Assembly (NCBI GenBank): GCA_013115145.1
Contig: JAAPAO010000376.1
Span: 1-34,696, forward strand
DNA length: 34,696 bases
Direction of reading: 5' to 3'
DNA from: Perkinsus chesapeaki
Lineage: Eukaryota > Perkinsozoa > Perkinsida > Perkinsidae
This document shows, one piece after another, positions 3,242 to 34,696 of the stretch. Each line of letters opens with the position of its first letter. Positions within the stretch are counted from its first letter, which is position 1. The notes below the pieces were generated by a model. The model worked only from the letters and a program-made list of their open reading frames with translations, searched no databases and was not told the DNA's origin. Both the position numbers and the translations under genes were made by a program.

Positions 3242-4618
3242 TTAATCATCATCAGGCAGTTCCTCATCCTTTGAGAACAAGGCAGCGGCACCAGAACTCT
3301 GCAGGACATGCTGCGGAGTCTGAGTAAGAGAGTGACGTAATCCGCATGATAATACGTAACTTACATCAACCTCGGTGTTGTCCTCTTCTTCCTCGTCATC
3401 AGATGAATCAGAGGATTCATCATCCTCATCTTTAAACAGTGTAGGATCGAAGGCAAACAGATCCCTAATAAGCACTCATCAGCTTAAACCATCTGCAATA
3501 GTCACAATGCCCTTCCTTACCTTCCAGACATAACACTCCGTTTCTCTTTCTTGGCCTGAGCAATACGCTCCTGCTTCTTTCGTTCTTCATCAGCTTCCCT
3601 CTCCTCTTGTTTCTTCTTTTTCCACGCGGTAAACGTTTCGAGGGTAACAGGAGTTCCTAATAGGCAAACATGATCGGTATCAATCCTATACAAAAGGCAA
3701 ATGGTATTGCTATTATTATTTACCTCCTGCAGGCAAGGCTTGTCGTTCTTGCTCGATGATCTCATCGATTGATGGACCATTGTCATAATCATCCTCATCA
3801 TCATCTGTTTTCTTCTTCTTAAGGACGTATCCAGGAGGCAATGCGTGTCGATATTTACACTTATCACCACCATTAGGACACACCCAGAACTGGAAGGCAT
3901 TCTCAAACATCCCCACTCTACGATATAAACTTACCCAACCATAAACACCCTTCTCCACGGCATCGAGGAAATACTTGCAGATGATCTCTGTTGGCTTATT
4001 CTGGTTTGTAGCATTATGCTTCGTCTTAATGACTTGTTCCAGTTTAGCCTGGTCCCAGTGGTCCATAGTATCCTGCTTCTTCTCCTCTTCAGACTCGGAT
4101 TTATTTCGGTTATCAGAATACAGATCGATCTTGCCATATTTCTCCTCCTACCATGCACACCCATATTAACCATAATAACATCAGCTCCCCTCCACTACAC
4201 ACCTCTTCCTTCTTCTTTTGTTTGGCTGCCTTCTTCTTATCCTTTTTAGTCTCCAATTGTACTCCAGAGAATATTGACTGCAACAAGAACTGCCGTTGTT
4301 CTTCCTTCTTCTTCTCTTCTCGCTTCTCAAACTAGCCACGACGACCAAGTCCATGTCACTCATTTTAACCGCACAATTACCTCGTTCTTTTGAGGCCCCC
4401 GTTGACCAGGTTTAGCCTTCGCTGCGGCCTGCACTTCCTGGACATACCTGGACTTGCTAAGTACCCCAATGTTAGCAATGAGAATGCTACTACCTCTGAA
4501 CCTTATGAGACTTGTTCTTATTCTTAAGGCCGAAGGTCTTGTCCTCAGCGACCCTCTCCCGGGCCTTCATCTTTGCCTTGTCCGCCCCTCGATCTTGTTT
4601 GGTAGCTTTAGGGGGCAT
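3242..4618 (-). CDS. ZC3H15: DRG family regulatory protein 1 (ZC3H15/DFRP1, Tma46-like)
   Basis: Eight exons, minus strand: 4618-4494, 4456-4381, 4325-4203, 4144-3935, 3889-3724, 3656-3521, 3464-3365, 3298-3242; 330 residues against about 426 in human. The start MPPK and the conserved EDKTFGLKNK match ZC3H15 proteins. The DFRP domain that grips DRG1 is present (DTMDHWDQAKLEQV and ICKYFLDAVEKGVYGW), followed by one CCCH zinc finger (WVCPNGGDKCKYRHALPPG), the ETFTAWKKKK helix and an acidic tail. The first CCCH finger of animal ZC3H15 is missing: a Lys-rich run leads straight into the segment before DTMDHW. In other eukaryotes the protein stabilises DRG1 and stimulates its GTPase on ribosomes. 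It starts 137 nt after the DRG1 stop on the same strand. Confidence 0.93.
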
Positions 4619-4755: not shown

Positions 4756-6435
4756 TTAACCCGACGTCTTGACAATCTGTACCACATCCTCATCATAAAG
4801 CACCTAACAATTGATAGGCCATGGCCGAGGGAGGGGCGTAGGATGCTATTACATGGTCCCTGCCAACACGCTGTGGGTTGTGCTTCACTGACATACCCCA
4901 GACTAAGGCATACTTAAACTCTTCGAGAATGCTCTATAAAATAACGATTAGTATCATACTAATATCATGCTCTACCTTGTGCAGTTTGAGACAGAAGTCC
5001 TCTACAGTACACTTCTCCCGTGGTAGGATAACTGGCTCTGAGTAATCTGGGACCTGTCCCTTTGGCTTAGTGTATACCTAAATGACGCCCAGATACTAGA
5101 AGTGATGGCGGCGGCACAGTTCTCAAAAAGAAGAAGGCCCCGTCTATTGGATTGTGTTAAACTTCACGTTTAGAGAGTTTAATGAAGTCCTGCCATTTTC
5201 GAAAGTGTGGCCTGCCCGTGTGTGTGCCTTATAAAATTCGACTTATAGACTAATGTGATAGAAACACGTCACGTGATTGTTGATGTATGTGTTGTTGTTG
5301 TCGTGGTGGTGATGGTGGTGTTAAGTTGATACTTACTCTGATAAGGTCCATATAGTCCCACATTTTATCCTTTAAACCATCAATATTCCATCCAAGATCA
5401 GCTGATATAGGAACGTAATGAGGGCATTTGCATATAACATCAAGCTCCTCAATAGTAATGGAATCTATCTTATTCATCACATACAAGCATGGTACATATT
5501 TCCGTCCACCTAACGATAAATTCCATCGTACTGGTGACAGCAGGAAGAGGACTCACCTTCTATGATATCAATAAGATCATCACTAGTAGCATTACAGCGG
5601 AAGACTATAGAAGCATTGGTGATTCGGAACTCTTTACAGATAGTAACAACTGTCTCCTCATCCATACCGATCAATCGATAACCAGGTGCCACAGTGATAT
5701 TGATGCCACCCTTATCAGCCTTAGTTATCACAATATTAGGCTTCTTCTTGTTCAATCTCATACCGAACCCTTCAAGTTCGTGCTCGATCTTCCGTTTTTG
5801 AGTAAGAGGCTTAGTAACATCCAAACAGATAAGAATAAGACTACATGTCATAGCCACACTAATAACCTGTTTACCTCTACCCTTACCATCCTTAGCACCC
5901 TCAATAATACCTAATACACACATCCTATCCAGTGCCAACATGTCACTCATCCGCCCCCCCCGCCGCCCCTCCTACCAGGAAGATCCAACACCTGCACTTT
6001 AGCACCTTTATACGTATATACACCAGGAACGCATGTTAGAGTTGTGAACTCGTAGGCAGCTGTCTCAGAGAATGTACCAGTGAGCTGCAATAACGGCAAT
6101 AATGTCCTCCACATTACCTTAAGCATGATCATTACCTTATTTAGTAATGTTGATTTCCCCACTGATGGGAACCCTATAAGCCCCACTCGTGCATTACCAG
6201 TAGCCTTTACATCAAACCCTTCACCGCCACCACCACCACCGCTCTTGCTGGACCCGCTTACCAACTGAAAGGGAAATGAGAAGATGCTCGGTGAGCTCGG
6301 TAGAGGGGGTGGTACCTCAGTCTTCAGCTTGGCAAGCTTTGCCTTTAAACGACCAAGATGGGCGTTGGTGGCCTTATTCTTCTGAGTTCGGGCCATCTCA
6401 GCCTCGATCTCATTGATCCTATCTAAAGTACTCAT
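4756..6435 (-). CDS. DRG1: Developmentally regulated GTP-binding protein 1 (DRG1/Rbg1)
   Basis: Eight exons: 6435-6316, 6264-6136, 6084-5976, 5910-5557, 5509-5337, 5077-4976, 4933-4853, 4803-4756; 371 residues against 367 in human, so full length. It has the N-terminal helical segment ([15 protein letters not shown]), the Gly-rich linker, the P-loop GFPSVGKST, switch region [19 protein letters not shown], and a C-terminal TGS domain ([11 protein letters not shown] to DEDVVQIVK). DRG1 is a translation-associated GTPase that needs its DFRP1 partner for stability and activity; the gene for that partner follows directly. Introns are 42-65 nt except a 259-nt intron (5336-5078). Two 51-nt introns (6315-6265, 6135-6085) are in frame and free of stops, but removing them restores the family sequence exactly. 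Confidence 0.96.
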
Positions 6436-19906: not shown

Positions 19907-20746
19907 TTGCGTTGTCATGCTCCCCCCTATTGCCACCGTCTTTTCAGTTCCACTATGCCTCCTCTCTCTCACCACACAACCCCCTCCTGTGCTTGTACTG
20001 GTATACGCAGTTGTCGGCTTTGTGAGGATGCCGGGAGCCGGAGTCTCAAACATAATGTCTACAACCCTCAAGAACGGTTCCTTCCGGATGAAGTGCCAGA
20101 GTCAGGCAGGATCGATGCATTGCCACCGGGGCTGCGAGTGGTGCCAAATGCATTTACAGAGGCCGAAGAGAAGGAGCTGCTCTGTGAGGTTTATAAGGGG
20201 GAATGGAAGGCATCTCAGTCGGGCCGACGGAAGCAGGACTATGGTCCACAGGTCAACTTCAAGAAAAACAAATTAAAGTGCCCGGAAAGATTCAAAGGCC
20301 TTCCGCAGTACATGGACGAAGTGTTGGCTCGTGCACACTCTTTATTGGGCATGCCGATGGATTATGAGTGGCATGAGATGGTCGTACAGGAGTATACAGC
20401 GGATAGAGGGAGCAGTATAGCCCTCCATAAGGACCACAGTTGGGTCTGGGCTGATGGTATCTTGGATATATCCCTCGGTGCTGATTCCATCATGACCTTC
20501 GCCAACCCTTCTAGAGGCATTTACTGTGATGTAGAGCTGCCTAGAAGGAGTATATGTTTGATAGGAGGGGAAGCTCAGAGTGAATGGCTGCATGGGATAA
20601 GGCGAGGTAATGCTTGTATAGGCCCCCCCTCAAAAGAGGAGGAGGAGGTGAGGATATCTCTCACACTGAGGGTGCTTACTGAGGAGGCTGCAGCTACTGT
20701 AGGGGGAAAGGAAACTATAAGGAGGTCTCGAATGAGGTGTTGTTAA
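19907..20746 (+). CDS. ALKBH4: AlkB homolog 4, Fe(II)/2-oxoglutarate dioxygenase
   Basis: Single exon of 840 nt, 279 residues. It has the ALKBH4-specific N-terminal Cys cluster (CACTGIRSCRLC, residues 28-39) and the nearly invariant SQSGRRKQDYGP block (residues 103-114). The iron ligands are H174 and D176 (LHKDHSW) and H229 (EWLHGIRR), and the 2-oxoglutarate-binding Arg lies in RISLTLR near 249. In animals ALKBH4 demethylates lysine in actin and has been reported to act on DNA 6-methyladenine. Met17 (19955) places the start closer to the Cys cluster, as in other members, and may be the true start. The gene has no introns, whereas DNAI1, 138 nt downstream, has 17. Confidence 0.95.
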   Translation: MRCHAPPYCHRLFSSTMPPLSHHTTPSCACTGIRSCRLCEDAGSRSLKHNVYNPQERFLPDEVPESGRIDALPPGLRVVPNAFTEAEEKELLCEVYKGEWKASQSGRRKQDYGPQVNFKKNKLKCPERFKGLPQYMDEVLARAHSLLGMPMDYEWHEMVVQEYTADRGSSIALHKDHSWVWADGILDISLGADSIMTFANPSRGIYCDVELPRRSICLIGGEAQSEWLHGIRRGNACIGPPSKEEEEVRISLTLRVLTEEAAATVGGKETIRRSRMRCC

Positions 20747-25707: not shown

Positions 25708-27103
25708 ATGGTGGCCAAGAAGGAGGCTGATAACTCCTTTGACTCAGTAATAAAGCTATGCTGTGCTGAAGAGGTAATAACAACGGCGAGAGAGCTAATA
25801 GAATGGGAATCATAGTACTTTGTATAAGCTCCCTAGTGGATCTGCTTCATATGTGGCCTCGAACTAATGTAGTTGTATTCCATATGCCAGCTGGTGGGGC
25901 CTATAGCCTTTCCAATAGTGGTAGGGTTAATATAGGTCACTGATAGGCAGTAGTGGGTTGAATAGGTTACTAGCGATAAGATACCTGCTACTTCGATGGG
26001 GGATCCACCATGCACTGTGAGTAGGTATGGAATAGGTATAGGCTGGGTTATTGGGCAACTTGTACTATTTCATTGTATTGTGGAGCTATTATTGTTTAGG
26101 AGTGTGAGCCTGAAGAGCTCTCAGAGGTGGTGCTTGATGAAGAGAATTTACCAAAGATAACAAAAGCCGATATGAGCGGCGACATTGCCAAGTAGTCCGC
26201 CATTCTACTGTTGTATCATTAGATGTAGCTACGGTTCAGGTGCGAGAATCTTACGTTGATCAACTTAACCTGCTGTGGCCTTACAAGCATCGACGCCCCT
26301 TTTCCTGAGCTACCCAACGTACAGACTGTAGATATGAGCGAGAATAAGCTGACCTCTGACGTTCTAGAGTAAGTAGGCTCCCAGTGGGTGTGATGATGAT
26401 ATACTGTTTCTCTGTTCAGTAAGTTCAGCAATCTATCTGCCCTTCGGCTATTGGTGCTGCGGGGTAACCTGATAGAGACTGTGGATGAGTTCAAGGCATT
26501 GAGGGATCTTAAGGCCCTACAGGCTATTGACATCGGTAATGTGGGGGAGGGTGGCCTTGTAGAGGGGCTTATTAGAGGGCTGTCCTGTAACGAAGGTGGC
26601 CAACTACCGTGAGAAAATATTCAAGATGCTGGAGCAAGTTGAGGTTATAGATGATAGAGGGCGGGAGGTAAGCTCTAGAGGAAGGGACTAAGGGTAAGGA
26701 ATTGTGTACAGGGAGAGAAGGTTGATATGGCTCGGCTATTGGGGCTGACGAATGAAGATGGAGAGCTGGTATCAGAAGGCTCGGAAGAATCTGATGGTGA
26801 TGATGGTGATGTGTTGGATGCTCTTGGAAGGGAGGAGTTGAGGAAGATGCTAGAGTAGTAGCTAGTGGGAGAAGGAGGAGCTGTTTGAGATTTCATTGCT
26901 TTAGCTTGGAGGATGATGATGATGAGGAGGAGGAGGAGGACAGTGATCCTGATGAGAATGATAAGTCTGAGGATGAGGAAGATGTTGATCCTGATATACC
27001 ACCAGTAGCTAAGAACGACGAGAATAGCGAAGATGCAGAGCAGGAGGAAGAGAGTAGCCAACCGCCGGCTACCAAGAAAGCACGCAAGGGTGGTGTTAAG
27101 TAG
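25708..27103 (+). CDS. ANP32-like acidic leucine-rich-repeat protein
   Basis: Seven exons: 25708-25773, 26100-26191, 26240-26368, 26420-26535, 26576-26667, 26712-26854, 26905-27103; 278 residues. Leucine-rich repeats run from about residue 54 (CENLTLINLTCCGLTSI, VQTVDMSENKLT, ALRLLVLRGNLIE). They are closed by the LRRCT cap typical of ANP32/LANP (VTKVANYREKIFKML). The C-terminal third is acidic (DDDDEEEEEDSDPDEND) and ends with a basic nuclear-localisation-like KKARKGG. ANP32 proteins are histone chaperones and phosphatase regulators in the nucleus. The first intron (25774-26099, 326 nt) is the longest in the window. A U2A' relative is less likely because of the acidic tail. Confidence 0.88.
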
Positions 27104-27254
27104 CTCACAGGGTAGTGGCTACACTACTGCTGCCGCTGCTGCCGTTGTTGTTGTTTCCCACGTATACTGTCCCCTCTATACAGTAGATATTGTGTTGAGC
27201 TATAGTGGCCCAATAGATCTGTTGTTAGTTATATATATTTTATCATTATACACA

Positions 27255-28561
27255 ATGCCATTCTCAAGCAAAGTATTCAGGAATTTAAAAGACTCTGTAT
27301 GATTACCGTTTAACCGTAAATGGTTATTATTGTCTTTTTAGATTGTCGGAGTGAAGGAGCAAGATGAAGATCCTCTCAAGACCACCCGTCTCGCTATCGA
27401 AGCCTATAGCAAGGACTCCAAGGTGAGGCTTGCAAGCCCTCGCTCTATATCCCTAATGTTTGTTCTTCTTCAGGCCCTCTGTCAGACTTTGCAAGATTTC
27501 GCAAAGGCAAATGACGAGCTTGATGGGGTTAGAGGGGAAGTGGTGAACACAGCAAAGGCGTTCCTGTTGCCGATGGACCAGCAGGGTGGGCTTCAAGTGG
27601 CCTCTGATCCCGAGGTAGGTGGAGAAGCAGCAGTCTAGTGAGATAGGGCAGGATGTTGTTTTCAGTTGACGAAGGTTGGTAATGTGTTCTCGGCTCAAAT
27701 AGAGAATATGAGTCGATCTAAGACGGAGACTAGGAAACTCCTTGATGATGCTATAAGCGAGGCGTCGGCAATGGAGAGGAGGTTGGCTGATATAGACACA
27801 GCATTTGGGGAGAGAGATAAGGCTGCTGAGTTGGTAGCACATTACAAGGAGAAGATGCAGTCGCTTAATGAGGAGCATTTGAGCAAGCCTAAGAAGGATA
27901 TGGATGATAGAGTCAAGAGGGTAATAGGGGGAGGAGGAGGAGGGGTTCAGTTGTTGTTGTTGTCTTTCAGAATCTCGTTAAGCAACAGAATGCAGTTGAG
28001 GCGTACAAACGTGTGGATAACCAAGTCAGAGCGGATGCCAACCAAGTGCTGGAGGGCCGTCAGACTAGCTTCGCCAAGATACTCGAGAAGGTAGGTGGCT
28101 GACCGCCGCCGCCGCCGCAGGAGGAGGTGTGAGGAGATGGAGGTATGTGTTGTTAGATGTGCACGTATCTGGCAAAGAACGGCAAGACACAAGGTGAAGC
28201 TGTACCGGCATTCGAGGAGCAGATACCAGCAATGATTAGAGAGAGTGAGGCTAATTTGGAGAGGACCAGAGCCGCAAGGGAAGCTGCAAAGGCCGCTGCA
28301 TTGGCAAGGCCAACTAAGAGCAGCACCTCGACGCTTGTACAGCAGCAGCATACTGACCCGAAACCCGAGACACCGAAGATGGAGGATCAAACATCGACTG
28401 CCGTGAACACTCCTACTGCAAAGGAAGGGGATGATGGAGAGAAGAAGGTTGATGAGCATCAGCAAAAGGAGGCACCAGAAGCAGCTGAGGAGGGGGCCAA
28501 GGAGGAGGCAACCCCGGACCAGTCACCTATGAGATCAGCCGACTCACTTGATAAGGAGTAA
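27255..28561 (+). CDS. BAR-like coiled-coil protein, tandem copy 1
   Basis: Exons 27255-27296 (42 nt), 27342-27422 (81), 27474-27614 (141), 27666-27920 (255), 27971-28090 (120) and 28157-28561. All introns are phase 0. The first exon encodes MPFSSKVFRNLKDS, a short amphipathic segment like the H0 helix of N-BAR proteins. The next exons are long Glu/Lys/Leu helices with RDKAAELVAHYKEKM followed by KPKKDMDDRVKR, a pattern seen in the curved helices of BAR domains that bind and bend membranes. The last exon adds a Glu/Pro-rich disordered tail (about 100 residues). A 9- or 6-nt microexon between 28091 and 28156 cannot be excluded. BAR assignment is by pattern, not by alignment. Confidence 0.7.
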
Positions 28562-28763
28562 TTCATTCGTTAGATACCCCAGTGCTCAGCAGCAGCACAT
28601 TCAAAACATTAAGACATTCATTCACTTACAGCCTTTTAAGGCATTGGCTACCACCGCCGCCCACTTACTGATAGAAACATTGTTTCCGTTGTGGCTGTTG
28701 CCATCCAGTATGTCGTTGAGTTGGGGAGGCACTGATGATTGCTGTTAGTTTTATATATCAATA
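28562..28763. other. Spacer between copies 1 and 2
   Basis: Gap of 202 nt carrying CAG and CTG trinucleotide bits. Like the region before copy 1, it ends in an AT-rich run just ahead of the start codon. No gene was seen. Confidence 0.4.
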
Positions 28764-30311
28764 ATGCCATTCTATAGCAGAACTGTTAGAGACCTCAAGG
28801 ATTCAGTAAGTCGCGGGGATGGATGGCTGGGCGGAGAGAGGAGGGCATAAGGTGCTGCAGCAGCAGCACTCACAGGCGATGTATTGAATGTTTTCATTTG
28901 ATATACATTTACTATGCATGTGCAAACTAGGCTTCAGTCGATGATGCAGAAGGAGCCCCTTGAGAGGATATTGTTATTGTGTAGATGTTTGGTGTGAAGC
29001 CAGAGAAGAGTGATCCTTTACAGAGGTCTAGAGAAGAGGTCACTGAATACCTCTCGAAGGCAAAGGTGAGAATTCCAACTCATGGGGTAATACGTTACTC
29101 ATAGCCTTGTTACTCAGGAGCTTCAAGCAACATTGTTGAACTTCCAGAAGACTGTGGATGAGATGGGGGCTATTAGGGAGGACGTCGTTAGACAGTCTCG
29201 AAACTTTTTAATGCCGCTCAGTGAGGGAGGTCAGGACTATAGTGCATCTTCGGGGGGACAGGTAGGCTAATGTGGTACCTAATAGTAGATTGTAAGGGTT
29301 TGGTCTTAGTACGCGAAGGTTGGAGAGTTGTTTGCTAATCAAATAGAGATAATGAGCACTTCGAAGGCCAACACAAGGTCCTTGTTGAATGATGCTATAG
29401 CTGATGCTGGCACACTCATAGAGAGGCTTACGGACCTGCAGACTCAGTTCAGCGAGAGGGATAGGGCTGGAGAGTCGGTCGAGCATTACAGGCAGAAGCT
29501 GTCGGATCTGAATACAGAGCAGGTTAATAAGCCTAAGAAGGATATACAGGACAGGATTAAGAGGGTAAGCAGCCTTACGGTGGCTGCAGCTGAGGGGTAG
29601 GCTGTCTGTTTTAGAATATCGTGAAGTACAATGAAGCTGTATCGAACTATCAGAGTATTGATGATGCTTGCCGATCAGCGGTGTCAGTGTTATTGGAGAG
29701 CCGCCAGGCAGACTTCTCCCAGATACTGGAGAATGTAGGAATGGAAAGGGGTGGTGTCGTTATCGGAACTGGCTACTGTACTTGAGCTCACCCTCCCGCG
29801 GACGTGTGGTATAACATCGGACAGGCTGCTGTTGATACATACGAGGTTAGTTCAAGTGGTCGTTTTGCTTCTAGTATGGCTTGTTGCCGCAAATAATGGG
29901 GAGGCTGCTGAGTAAGATAAGGCTAATCTAATTGCGTCTGCTCAGTGCAAGTAGTGTTTTTGACTTTGTTATTTTCAGATGTGCCTCTATATAGCGACCA
30001 ATGTCCAGTCCTCTACCTCTTGTATACCAGTATTTACCAAGGAAATACCAGATGCTGTGGAGCATAATAAAGCTCTTAGGGATGAACAGATTAAAGCAAG
30101 GAAGGAGGCTGCTGCTGCTGCTCCTAGCGCTGATGCTGCGGCTGGTGGTGTCTCTGATGCTACCAAGATACAGCCTCTTACTGAAGCCGCCCCTGAAGAG
30201 GTCAACGAGGCAGCGCCAGAGGTCGCAGAGAATGATACACCTAAAGGTGCTGATGGTGACGCTGATGGGAAGGTCGTCAATGGCCCTTCTGCTTCGCCAT
30301 CCACTGTGTAA
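28764..30311 (+). CDS. BAR-like coiled-coil protein, tandem copy 2
   Basis: Exons 28764-28805 (42 nt), 28985-29065 (81), 29118-29261 (144), 29310-29564 (255), 29615-29734 (120), probably a 21-nt microexon 29825-29845 (AAVDTYE), and 29979-30311. Exon sizes and phase match copy 1. The start is MPFYSRTVRDLKDS; the helical core has RDRAGESVEHYRQKL and KPKKDIQDRIKR, then LLESRQADFSQILEN. The last exon starts MCLYIATN, parallel to MCTYLAKN of copy 1, and ends in an Ala/Glu-rich tail. Without the microexon the last intron would be 244 nt. Probable peripheral membrane protein; function is inferred only from the BAR-like pattern. Confidence 0.7.
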
Positions 30312-30503
30312 AGACTTGAATTTTAGTAGCAGTTACTGTTGCTGTTGTGATGATGATGATTTGTTAACTTTAGCCCATTGGCATTTTTAATACACATACA
30401 TTTCTAGGGTAGTAATACAGGTAGTAACGATGTTGTTGAGTAGTAGTATATCTCAGTTTATCCCTTGTGAAGTTATTATTTAATATTTTTCATCACAACT
30501 ACT

Positions 30504-31669
30504 ATGGCAGAAAACGACATCAGCGCTACAAATGCGAAGCCTGCCGTCATGACTCGCCATGAGAGGACGGCCTCTTCATCGGTCGGCGGTGCTGCGCCAA
30601 CAGTAGCTTCGACATCGTCGTCGTCGTTGTCCAATGGCGAGGATCCTCTATCAAGTCTGCGAGCCCAGCTGCCTCAACATGAGGCTAAGGCTAGAGCTTT
30701 ATTGAGCTCATTACAGGAGATAGGGGATTATGTTAGTAAATTAGACGAGGCACAGCAGAAGACAGCAAGGCTATTCCGAACTGAACTCATGGCACCTTCA
30801 GGGCGTCCTGTCAACCACGATGTAATAACGCTCCTTGTGGGGATCGAACCTGCGTGCCTGTGAGGTAATATTTCTCTCTTTCTTCAGTACTCCCAAGCCT
30901 GCACTTTATTCGTGAACCAGTTGAATGCTATTCACGAATCTATACTGGATGCCCGATGTGAACTATCTGGAGCAGTATGCTTTGCTGAAGAGATGGTAGA
31001 TAGGAACCATGAGATACAGGGCAGACTACTGCAGCGGGACAGGACTAATGGTCAGCTTAAACGATGTATTATGAAAGTACAGGAGTTATCACAGAAAGAT
31101 ACCAAACATATGAGTAGAGATTATGACCAACAAATTGGAGAGGTAACCTAGTGCTACGAGTTGGCTGCTACCATCGGTTATCATCAGGCACTTAACAAAT
31201 ACCATAATGTTGAGCGTGAGGCCGAGACCTTGGATAAGTCGGTTACAGCCGATCTTAAGGCCCTTATTGAGCACCAGGATACCGACTATGCGAGAGTGCT
31301 GGCTCCGGTACTATTCACGAATACCTTTTACCTTACAAGGCTTCCCGTCAGTTCTCTCGGTATCTTGGTGTAGCTGCATCGACAGAGTCTAATACAGCAT
31401 ATATACTGGCTAAAAAAGTTCCAAATATGCTTCGCTCCGCCGTTCATGAAGATTTAGTGTCCGACCGAAGACCTCAGGCATTCTCAATTGATGAGGAGGA
31501 GGATGATGACGACGAGGCAGAGGAGGTATCGGCCGCTGGTGGCACTATAGATGCGTGCGTTGAGGAAACTCCGCGTGCAAGTTGCGAGGGCGCCGTACCC
31601 ACTGCTAGGCAGTCAGAGCCTCCCAAAGAGACCGCTCGACCGGCTGTACAAGGCCAGAAGGGAGCGTAG
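30504..31669 (+). CDS. BAR-like coiled-coil protein, tandem copy 3
   Basis: Four exons: 30504-30821 (318 nt), 30888-31142 (255), 31188-31307 (120), 31352-31669 (318); 336 residues. The 255- and 120-nt core exons match copies 1 and 2 in size and phase. The separate H0-like and 27-residue exons are absent; a single first exon has a Ser/Thr-rich start, then EDPLSSLRAQLPQHEAKARAL, homologous to exons 2 and 3 of the others. The last exon begins FSRYLGVAAS, includes KKVPNMLRSA, and ends in an acidic then Pro/Glu-rich tail. Peripheral membrane or scaffold role inferred. Confidence 0.7.
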
Positions 31670-32290
31670 AGAATCGTTCAACTTAGCTCCTGCTATCTCA
31701 GGCTGGCGCGTGCGACGTTGTCGTTGGGTGCTCTAGCATGAACGATACTGTGTGCAATTTTGTATAAGTTTTCTATACACTAAGCTCCGATTTGTATCAG
31801 CGCCATTTTTATCATTGTTGCATTGGCCACCTTCCGTTGCCACAAGAACCTGGAAAAGTGCAGGATTCCTGTCGGGAGGAGCTTGCGGCGTTATCTCCGT
31901 ATTTTCCATAACTACTGCACCACCAATACTTGTCGAGTTTTGAATACATCTCTATTGACTTTTGTTCAAGTAATCAATTGGCGGCTGGCCGCTCTTGCTT
32001 TCTGAGCATCATGAGGCTCAAGCTGATTTTTAACTCCCGACAATCTCGGGGTGTTTAAATTTCATATCTAGGATATATGCTTACATTTGGCAGTGGGATC
32101 ATTTTTAAAAGCATTTCAACTTATGTTTATCAAACGAGGCGATTGTCTTGCCGAGGCTAGCAACACAATGTCTCTTGTGGCACAAAGGCTTCGGAGCTAG
32201 TCCCGTGGCGAGTGACGTATTTTGTACCGGTAGTTGTATTTCGAATATTCTTAATAGGTTTGTTTTACCCTATTTGTTATTATTATTAAA
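31670..32290. other. Spacer between copies 3 and 4
   Basis: About 620 nt, the largest gap in the array. A small inverted repeat (CCCGA-n5-TCGGG) lies near 32036-32050, and a GGCGAGTGAC word at 32208-32217 resembles those upstream of CCDC25. No coding signal was recognised. Confidence 0.4.
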
Positions 32291-33265
32291 ATGGATTTTG
32301 CTGAAGAAGGCGAGTGGAGCCCTATGAAGCACATCAGCGAGGAGAAGCTCGAATATTTCAGAGAGAATCTTCCCCAACGTGCGGGTGTTGCTGAAAATCT
32401 GAGAGACCAGATGGAACTGGTGAACCATTATATGCAGAAGCTGGATGAAGCTCAGAAGGATGTTGCTCGGTTGTTTGAAGAGCAACTTGTTACTGAGGAA
32501 GCTGAAGGCGAAAGCGACTACGTAAGCCTCTGTTACGCTGCGAGTTGAGGTGGTGAAGTGATGGTGTTCAGTTCCGTGATGCCTGTAGGGAGTTTTTGAC
32601 CAAGTCGGAGGCCTGGCACAACGCTGTTGAGTGCGCGCAGCCTAAAATGGATCGTGCACTTGCTAGAGCCCAAGCTGTAAGGCATAGCTCCTGCTGCTGC
32701 AACCTGAGTGTCATTTAGTAGCCGTCAGGTTGCTGGTCAATACAGACGTCTCGAAGAAGCTGACGATCTAAGTTCTCTTGATCACGTTACTGCCAACAAG
32801 CTCTATCAGTCGGTTCAGTGCCCCGGTGCGGACTACGCTAAAATACTAGCACCTGTAAGTGGTCTGATACGGCTTATTCTTGCTAGTCTATGATCGTGTT
32901 CTTGCTCTTAGTATTCTCGTTATCTCGGTTACTGCGCTCCAGGCAGCGACTGTGCCTCTGTTCTGGTTAAAACCGTCCCCCGTGAGATTCGCCGTGGTAT
33001 GAAGGACATCCCAGAGCCTGTCCTCACAGCTGAGAAGTCCACCGATCACAGTTCGTCTAGCTCTTCGTCTTCATCATCATCCAGCAGCGATGGCGAAGCC
33101 AGTGAAGGCGGTCACCATCGTAGCCGTCGTGGACTCTTTGGCCGCCGTCGTCAGGGCAGCGGCGAGTCCGGTAATGAAGAGAAGGAGCATGAAGAGGAGG
33201 AAGGCGGTGCCCATCATATGATGGTAGGAGGAACTGAGGTTACTATTGTACAGGATGGAGAGTAA
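32291..33265 (+). CDS. BAR-like coiled-coil protein, tandem copy 4 (shortened core)
   Basis: Four exons: 32291-32521 (231 nt), 32572-32676 (105), 32729-32854 (126), 32912-33265 (354); 271 residues. It shares with copy 3 the fused first exon and the segment YMQKLDEAQKDVARLF (compare YVSKLDEAQQKTARLF in copy 3). The core exon that is 255 nt in copies 1-3 is only 105 nt here, so about 50 residues of the coiled coil are missing in frame. The last exon begins YSRYLGYCAPG, contains KTVPREIRRGM, and ends in a Ser/Asp-rich, then Arg/Gly-rich and Glu-rich tail. The frame is intact, so it is probably functional with a different helix length. Confidence 0.7.
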
Positions 33266-33505
33266 ATACTAGAAATCTTTTTCTTTGCTGTCGCCATTTG
33301 AAAGGCTCTTTAGCAGCCACTGCGGTGGTGTGCGTTATTACAGATGAGTGTTTAATCGACTTGCCGTTTTCGGCAAGTGCGTGCCTTCCTTTAGCAGGCT
33401 GTTGTTGTGTTGTCCTCCATTGGTTGGCTAGTGCTTGCTTGTTCGTTGAATTATCGGAGATATGGGAAGTTTCCGTATTCGGTCAGGTTTTCTATTGTTA
33501 TTTAA
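33266..33505. other. Spacer between copies 4 and 5
   Basis: Gap of 240 nt, T/G-rich with no gene recognised. An AT-rich run directly precedes the copy 5 start, as in the other copies. Confidence 0.4.
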
Positions 33506-34673
33506 ATGGTTGTCTTTTCTAGCAAACACTGGAGGAATCTTACCAACACGGTAGTAGCGGGTGGTTGGGTAACAGCGGCGCATTTAGTGGAGTTTGCCGT
33601 GGTGTCGTGGACTCTCTCACCCATTAGACTTGGCTTAGACTTTGTAATGGTGCACAGTGGAATAAGTCAGGTCATGGGGGTACAGGCCATCACTTCTGAT
33701 CCGTTGGAAAGCAGGAGGAAGCAGCTGGCGGACTACACAGGACGCGTTCAAGTAGACCTAAGCGACAGCGATGGGTCTGGTGGGGGTACCGTTTCTTGGT
33801 TAGGCTCTTCACCAGCATATAGTTCGATTGCTCTCCATCACAGATCAGCTCATTCAGAGCCACGATGATTTAATTAAGGATATGAATCTTATAATGGGAT
33901 GTTCCTCTACAGAGGATGTTACAAAGGAGCAGAAGGCTCCCAGTGATGAGGTCGGTGTTTGGGAGCTTGAAAGGGAATGGTGGGAGTATCGGCTGAAGAT
34001 GAGGAAAGGAGAAACCTTGATCTTTCAGAACGCTCGAGCAATATCCCTCTTCGAGGATCGGCTGGGCGAGTTCAATAAGATGGCGCGTGACGCGAGACCA
34101 CAATTAGAGAAAGCCAGAAATGAGGCGCAAGAATTAGTGCGGCGTACCGGTGACCTTCAAGAGAAGCTGAAGAGTCGCGACCGTGCCTACGAGGAGCTGA
34201 ATCATTATAATCAGAAGGTCACCGATCTCAAAGCAGAGATGGCCAAGAAATCAAAGCCTGATGTGAAGGAGCAAGAACGGCTGGATCGAGTAGGAAATGT
34301 CAATGATTATTGTGGAGATTCAGTCGTTGATAGAACGTTGATAAGCATCGTATAGCGCAGGAGAACTTCACCAAGTTGGACGGGGAAGTCCGAAGCGAAA
34401 TGGCGGTAGTTGTGGATAGTAAGGTGGTGGATATCGCTAGGGTGGTGGCTGAGGTAAGCCACGAAGGGAATCATTGACGTTACATTGCTGTTGTTGTATT
34501 AGTATTCTCGGTACCTTGGAACTGTGGGCTCGGCTGGAGTGAAGGATAACAACGTATTTAGGCAGGATATACCCAATATGGTCAAGGACTCGGCAGCGAA
34601 AGAGAATATTGCCGAAGGGAATGCCAATGAGGGCAATGCAGCAGCTTATCCCCACCTGCCGCCCCCTTCTTAA
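33506..34673 (+). CDS. BAR-like coiled-coil protein, tandem copy 5
   Basis: Exons 33506-33550 (45 nt), 33671-33751 (81), 33816-33950 (135), 34029-34289 (261), 34346-34453 (108), 34503-34673 (171); about 266 residues. It has the H0-like first exon (MVVFSSKHWRNLTNT) and the 27-residue second exon (GVQAITSDPLESRRKQ) seen in copies 1 and 2. The core carries RDRAYEELNHYNQKV. The last exon starts YSRYLGTVGSAG and ends in a short Ala/Pro tail. The 78-nt stretch 33951-34028 is in frame and stop-free; I treat it as an intron because copies 1 and 2 have an intron there, but it may be coding (26 extra residues). The acceptor of exon 5 could also be at 34361. Confidence 0.66.
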
Positions 34674-34696
34674 TTATTCTACTAGCCACAGTGCAG

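Follow-up and report, generated by a model that had tools for sequence, protein, structure and literature searches.

The window, which is the whole of contig C308 (JAAPAO010000376.1; 34,696 nucleotides) in the assembly GCA_013115145.1 of the clam parasite Perkinsus chesapeaki, carries near its end part of what we consider, with a probability of roughly 0.82, to be a row of tandemly duplicated genes, no fewer than six and probably seven, whose cytosolic products adopt the BAR fold and have inferred membrane-binding roles. Five homologous genes, named here c1 to c5, lie between positions 27255 and 34673, all on the plus strand and all with phase-0 introns in the spliced models, while c6 and c7 are placed on a second contig, C362. 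A BAR-fold bundle is present in the structure models of c2 (through its Perkinsus olseni orthologue) and c3. The array represents an already known fold that has expanded in this lineage, and not a new kind of protein.

Gene models for c1 to c5 were rebuilt from GT-AG introns. c1 (27255-28561; 347 residues) consists of six exons of 42, 81, 141, 255, 120 and 405 nt (27255-27296, 27342-27422, 27474-27614, 27666-27920, 27971-28090, 28157-28561) and encodes an H0-like start (MPFSSKVFRNLKDS), a BAR-like body and a tail rich in Glu, Pro and Lys. c2 (28764-30311; 324 residues) has exons of 42, 81, 144, 255, 120 and 333 nt (28764-28805, 28985-29065, 29118-29261, 29310-29564, 29615-29734, 29979-30311), and its spliced product is letter for letter the deposited protein P0007 (FOL47_006659), which already bears the UniRef name 'BAR domain-containing protein'. 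c3 (30504-31669; 336 residues; exons of 318, 255, 120 and 318 nt at 30504-30821, 30888-31142, 31188-31307 and 31352-31669) begins with a long, low-complexity segment without the short first exon and likewise equals a deposited protein, P0003 (FOL47_006660), letter for letter. c4 (32291-33265; 271 residues; exons of 231, 105, 126 and 354 nt at 32291-32521, 32572-32676, 32729-32854 and 32912-33265) also starts without the short first exon and ends in an Arg-rich tail with a Ser-run. c5 (33506-34673; 274 residues) returns to six exons of 45, 81, 147, 261, 120 and 171 nt (33506-33550, 33671-33751, 33804-33950, 34029-34289, 34334-34453, 34503-34673). An earlier note on this DNA had described tandem same-strand paralogues sharing a phase-0 exon grammar, which the rebuilt genes bear out; the exon sizes it listed also hold, apart from a c5 exon given as 108 nt that is actually 120 nt long. 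Introns in the models of c1 to c6 measure 42 to 244 nt and fall within the range for Perkinsus genes in excerpts from PMC3101222 (39-1622 bp, most under 100). By eye, a similar stretch, TGTTAGTT followed by TATATAT, stands just 5' of the start codons of c1 (27200-27254) and c2 (28720-28763), and none was seen in this way before the other copies.

c5 is transcribed. The MMETSP transcript-derived protein P0009 agrees with the c5 model residue for residue from LTNTV, where exon 1 finishes, as far as the stop codon, and this match covers all five introns. The first two residues of P0009 mismatch the genome, therefore the c5 start is without confirmation from this protein; P0009 was taken as a P. 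chesapeaki protein because of its identity to c5 beyond these two residues. The deposited c5 protein, P0008, translates the 78-nt intron 33951-34028 as coding, which contradicts P0009.

The last 73 bases of the window (34624-34696, plus strand) contain the 3' end of c5 and have a 100% match on the minus strand of C362 (26530-26602). About 150 bases downstream of this match lies c6 (C362 25303-26374, minus strand), whose exons of 45, 81, 147, 261, 120 and 177 nt follow nearly the same plan as those of c5. Also downstream is c7 (C362 23514-24511, minus strand), a diverged copy in which the first two exons (48 and 81 nt) fit the plan and the core was found in no single clean frame. The 73-base overlap is the sole basis on which c5 is taken to run on into c6. 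As judged from these sequences, the Perkinsus array probably comprises at least six genes, and probably seven. The family was located only on C308 and C362 when c2, the c5 transcript protein, c3 and c4 served as queries; these copy searches scored the best candidates only, and the copy count is therefore a lower bound. No further copy was found upstream in the window before base 27000 (tblastn, c1-c5, E up to 1). A 1,142-base stretch at the end of C362 is 98.4% identical to the c6 region and may stem from a second haplotype, from segmental duplication or from faulty assembly. Positions 26530-31173 of C362 (minus strand) hold this duplicate at the contig end, the copy of the c5 3' end and, between the two, some 3.4 kb made up largely of other sequence.

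Comparison with P. olseni indicates that the duplications giving c1 to c5 are older than the split between the two species. Orthologues in P. olseni are 60-82% identical to their P. chesapeaki counterparts (c1, 82% over 159 residues in piece P0004 and 75% over 100 in piece P0005; c2, 73% in P0010; c3, 70% over 64 residues in a fragment only; c4, 60% over 130 residues in the partial orthologue P0006; c5, 62%) and are thus far closer than the paralogues, which share 20-46%. In a maximum-likelihood tree of 12 rows, each of c1 to c5 groups with its counterpart from the other species, with bootstrap and Shimodaira-Hasegawa-like approximate likelihood ratio values of 99/99 for c1, 88/95 for c2, 88/90 for c3 (where one row is only 29% filled), 100/99 for c4 and 100/99 for c5. 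With a midpoint root the tree also joins c1 with c2 and c3 with c4 (100/100 each), and the placement of c6 is unsettled. Left out of this tree, in which P0001 represented P. olseni c1, were c7, P0004, P0005, P0013, P0014, P0015 and the c2 part of P0002; P0015 is of the c5 type, with 56% identity over 119 residues. The duplications, which had been described as old or fast-evolving, are therefore old. The related genome of P. olseni, where a search for the array had been suggested, contains c1, c2, c4 and c5 together with c3, the last at least in its initial part. Two of its gene models fuse neighbours, namely the upstream leucine-rich-repeat gene with c1 (P0001) and c2 with the first c3 exon (P0002), and therefore the same genes look adjacent in P. 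olseni too. In the window, the gene directly upstream of c1 (25708-27034, plus strand) has its match in the N-terminal portion of P0001, where Pfam recognises leucine-rich repeats. Protein searches, partly limited to about 8000 candidates sharing most words, named no relatives outside P. chesapeaki and P. olseni; no P. marinus match turned up in them, which does not show absence.

The tails, which the earlier note held to differ entirely, are indeed unrelated between the copies, and some of their ends are kept across species: c5 ends in AYPHLPPPS and P. olseni P0011 in AYPQLPPVA, c1 in DQSPMRSADSLDKE and P. olseni P0005 in DPSPAASADQTDKQ. This conservation bears on the idea that the copies are redundant paralogues with a single function, kept for dosage and differing neutrally in their tails. 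Polyploidy, reported for these species in the title of Bogema 2021, and the 98.4% duplicate of the c6 region would suit such an explanation. However, identity is under 50% in all 15 pairs among c1 to c6, two copies are without the first exon and the last residues of the c1 and c5 tails persist across the two species, which makes retention for dosage rather unlikely.

c3 and c4 share only 20-32% identity with the other copies and with each other. The core exon of c4 measures 105 nt as compared to 255 nt in c1, c2 and c3 and is therefore 150 nt shorter, with about 50 residues missing round the tip between helices 2 and 3. The gap faces c3 residues 151-198 in two MAFFT modes and 153-200 in one, a region that in the c3 model runs from the final part of helix 2 over the tip into the beginning of helix 3; its position scatters in nine pairwise settings, so that 'round the tip' is the finest placing. 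The P. olseni c4 piece P0006 carries the same gap, and therefore the shortening is old; c4 is apparently short-armed. Next to the tip, c5 and c6 are two residues longer than c1 and c2 (261 vs 255 nt). The low identity of c3 and c4, their missing first exon, the 50 residues absent from c4 and the lack of a clean frame in the c7 core could also be read as decay, with the c2-like copies alone functional and c3, c4 and c7 as decaying duplicates. We regard this as quite unlikely, since the frames of c3 and c4 are open, their introns are in phase 0 and their P. olseni orthologues (70% over 64 residues and 60% over 130, the latter with the same gap) fit constraint; for c7 alone the decay reading may apply.

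A BAR-like coiled coil had been proposed for these proteins, and it is borne out at the level of predicted structure by AlphaFold monomer models of the P. olseni c2 orthologue P0002 and of the window's own c3. Both are bundles of three long antiparallel helices, of which helices 2 and 3 reach a distal tip. In c2, the 255-nt core exon (29310-29564, plus strand) would encode helix 2, a Lys-rich arm tip (KPKKD) and the first turns of helix 3, as placed by the secondary structure of P0002. All 50 PDB entries among the VIA-align matches listed for the c2 orthologue belong to the BAR superfamily, and the same is true of the 50 for c3. The c2-orthologue model superposes at 2.1-2.9 Å over 195-216 residues on 1uru, 4avm, 3sog, 2fic, 4i1q, 1x04 and 9uhd and at 4.4 Å on 9bqx. 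For the c3 model the values are 2.5-3.6 Å over 196-217 residues on 1uru, 4atm, 2fic, 3sog, 4i1q and 9uhd, within the same range on 1x04, and 4.4 Å on 4avm. Foldseek is tighter for c3 (4avm, TMt 0.74 at 3.1 Å) than for c2.

Several observations weigh against a BAR-fold assignment. In Foldseek the c2 model superposes loosely (TMt 0.36 at 13.4 Å in the best row; 3caz 0.55 at 6.0 Å). Both models are monomers, their underlying alignments are shallow (one with 17 rows, of which 11 are single exons, the other with 10) and share sequences, so that the models are not independent, they cover two copies of seven, and VIA's own note cautions that helical bundles score high. Pfam searches with 10 proteins (c1-c5 and five relatives) listed several families, with E-values that ranged up to 1 and in places lay below 0.001, but all of them fell short of their curated cut-offs. 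The BAR family PF03114 was listed for none of the 10, which places the copies outside the cut-off of that sequence family, and the profile search suggested in the earlier note thus put no Pfam BAR model above cut-off in c1 to c5. The lowest Pfam E-values belong to non-BAR families of coiled-coil type, AATF-Che1 (6e-4, c2) and PHM7_cyt (1.3e-4, P0009). The top match in a PDB profile search was a designed helical bundle, a single-sequence search with P0010 ranked 3caz (E 0.67) below an unrelated chain, and other family members are labelled uncharacterized in UniRef. In the H0 stretch the hydrophobic moment (0.42-0.51; shuffle p 0.04-0.14; all seven sequences tested) is marginally above that of shuffles, and the helix predicted at residues 6-17 of the P0002 model has a predicted local distance difference test score of only about 50. 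A genome-wide search with PF03114 gave 0 matches and was uninformative, as 14 control genomes also gave none. A purely structural role, as coiled coils in the cytoskeleton or flagellum of alveolates that only look BAR-like and have no part at membranes, would agree with the lack of Pfam matches over cut-off and with the low-scoring matches to tropomyosin, ATG16, spectrin and further coiled coils, but it appears very unlikely given the superpositions of the c2 orthologue on 1uru, 4avm, 3sog, 2fic and 9uhd (2.1-2.9 Å over 196-216 residues) and of c3 on six BAR structures (2.5-3.6 Å over 196-217 residues; 4.4 Å on 4avm), and given that in both models the helix lengths match BAR domains and the tip is short.

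The further proposal that these are N-BAR proteins with an H0-like start holds for part of the array. A short first exon of 42-48 nt is present in c1 (MPFSSKVFRNLKDS), c2, c5 (MVVFSSKHWRNLTNT), c6 and, in altered form, c7; c3 and c4 have none. In the latter two, the first 15 residues after Met give moments of 0.14 and 0.19 (p 0.69 and 0.63), and the c3 model shows no helix before residue 50. The N-BAR label therefore probably fits only c1, c2, c5, c6 and presumably c7; in these copies, too, confidence in the H0 helix is low.

For the favoured array of BAR-fold proteins, a mechanism can be proposed by analogy with the BAR family. Each body would dimerise into a curved rod, the face of which, together with the basic arm tips, would bind acidic membrane lipids. 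In c1, c2, c5 and c6 the short N-terminal helix would insert and bend membranes actively; c3 and c4 might, more tentatively, sense or scaffold membranes with no insertion, and c4, with its shorter arms, would form a smaller rod. The unrelated disordered tails could perhaps recruit different partners, and one duplicated membrane-binding unit would thereby serve several compartments or steps. Endocytic or endosomal tubules and the zoospore flagellar membrane are our guesses at the target membranes. To our knowledge, the endocytic and flagellar membranes of this parasite group are little studied, and the array supplies membrane-shaping candidates in it. A more elaborate version, in which tandem duplication has produced graded curvature tools (long-armed with an inserting helix in c1, c2, c5 and c6, long-armed without it in c3, a short-armed mini-BAR in c4) and mixed dimers set the curvature of a Perkinsus-specific membrane, is rather doubtful. 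The sister genes, at least six BAR-fold genes in all, differ in arm length and in whether they have the short first exon, which amounts to a natural experiment on what sets rod curvature.

Among known proteins, the N-BAR domains of amphiphysin, BIN and endophilin (1uru, 4avm, 2fic, 1x04) resemble the c2 orthologue in their three-helix bundle and helix lengths (2.1-2.7 Å over 195-216 residues), and further likenesses are a disordered tail behind the body and, in c1, c2, c5 and c6, a short stretch preceding helix 1. However, identity to these four structures is 9-14% in the VIA alignments of both models, c3 and c4 are without the first exon, and the array proteins show no Pfam BAR match and no SH3 domain (no SH3 family was listed by Pfam for any of the 10 proteins). 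The BAR domain of FAM92A/CIBAR1 (9uhd) has the highest VIA Z (16.0 and 15.9 for the two models), but this lies within 1 of APPL in both models and of amphiphysin in c3, at 8-9% identity. A FAM92-like role at the cilium was not adopted, as the top Z is tied with APPL and others. By sequence profile, the best BAR match is 3caz from the red alga Galdieria sulphuraria, which aligns over helix 2, the tip and helix 3; however, the E-value of 0.029 for this partial domain is not significant and VIA superposes it at 4.8 and 5.4 Å. LdFlabarin of Leishmania, a lineage-restricted BAR protein of a protist likened here by description and not by sequence, tubulates liposomes and owes its flagellar specificity to its C-terminal domain, according to excerpts from PMC3785460, and it is the precedent behind our flagellar guess. 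Toxoplasma gondii, from a related alveolate parasite group and also compared by description, has two named BAR domain proteins in the excerpts of PMC7911406 and PMC9947163, in which, unlike here, a tandem array is unmentioned. No literature on Perkinsus BAR proteins was found among the papers listed in searches on Perkinsus with BAR domain and on Perkinsus genomes, as judged by titles and abstract starts.

Elsewhere in the window, an open frame on the minus strand (3517-4066) carries a DFRP_C domain (PF16543, E 1.4e-8, within 3517-3906), and about 1.4 kb away on the same strand open frames at 5510-6435 carry DRG-type GTPase domains (PF01926, E 4.5e-10; PF16897, E 1.2e-11). DFRP proteins are partners of DRG GTPases, and therefore partner genes adjoin here. 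On the plus strand, an open frame at 19907-20746 contains, at E 2.2e-13, the 2OG-Fe(II) oxygenase domain PF13532, which by our reading is AlkB-like.

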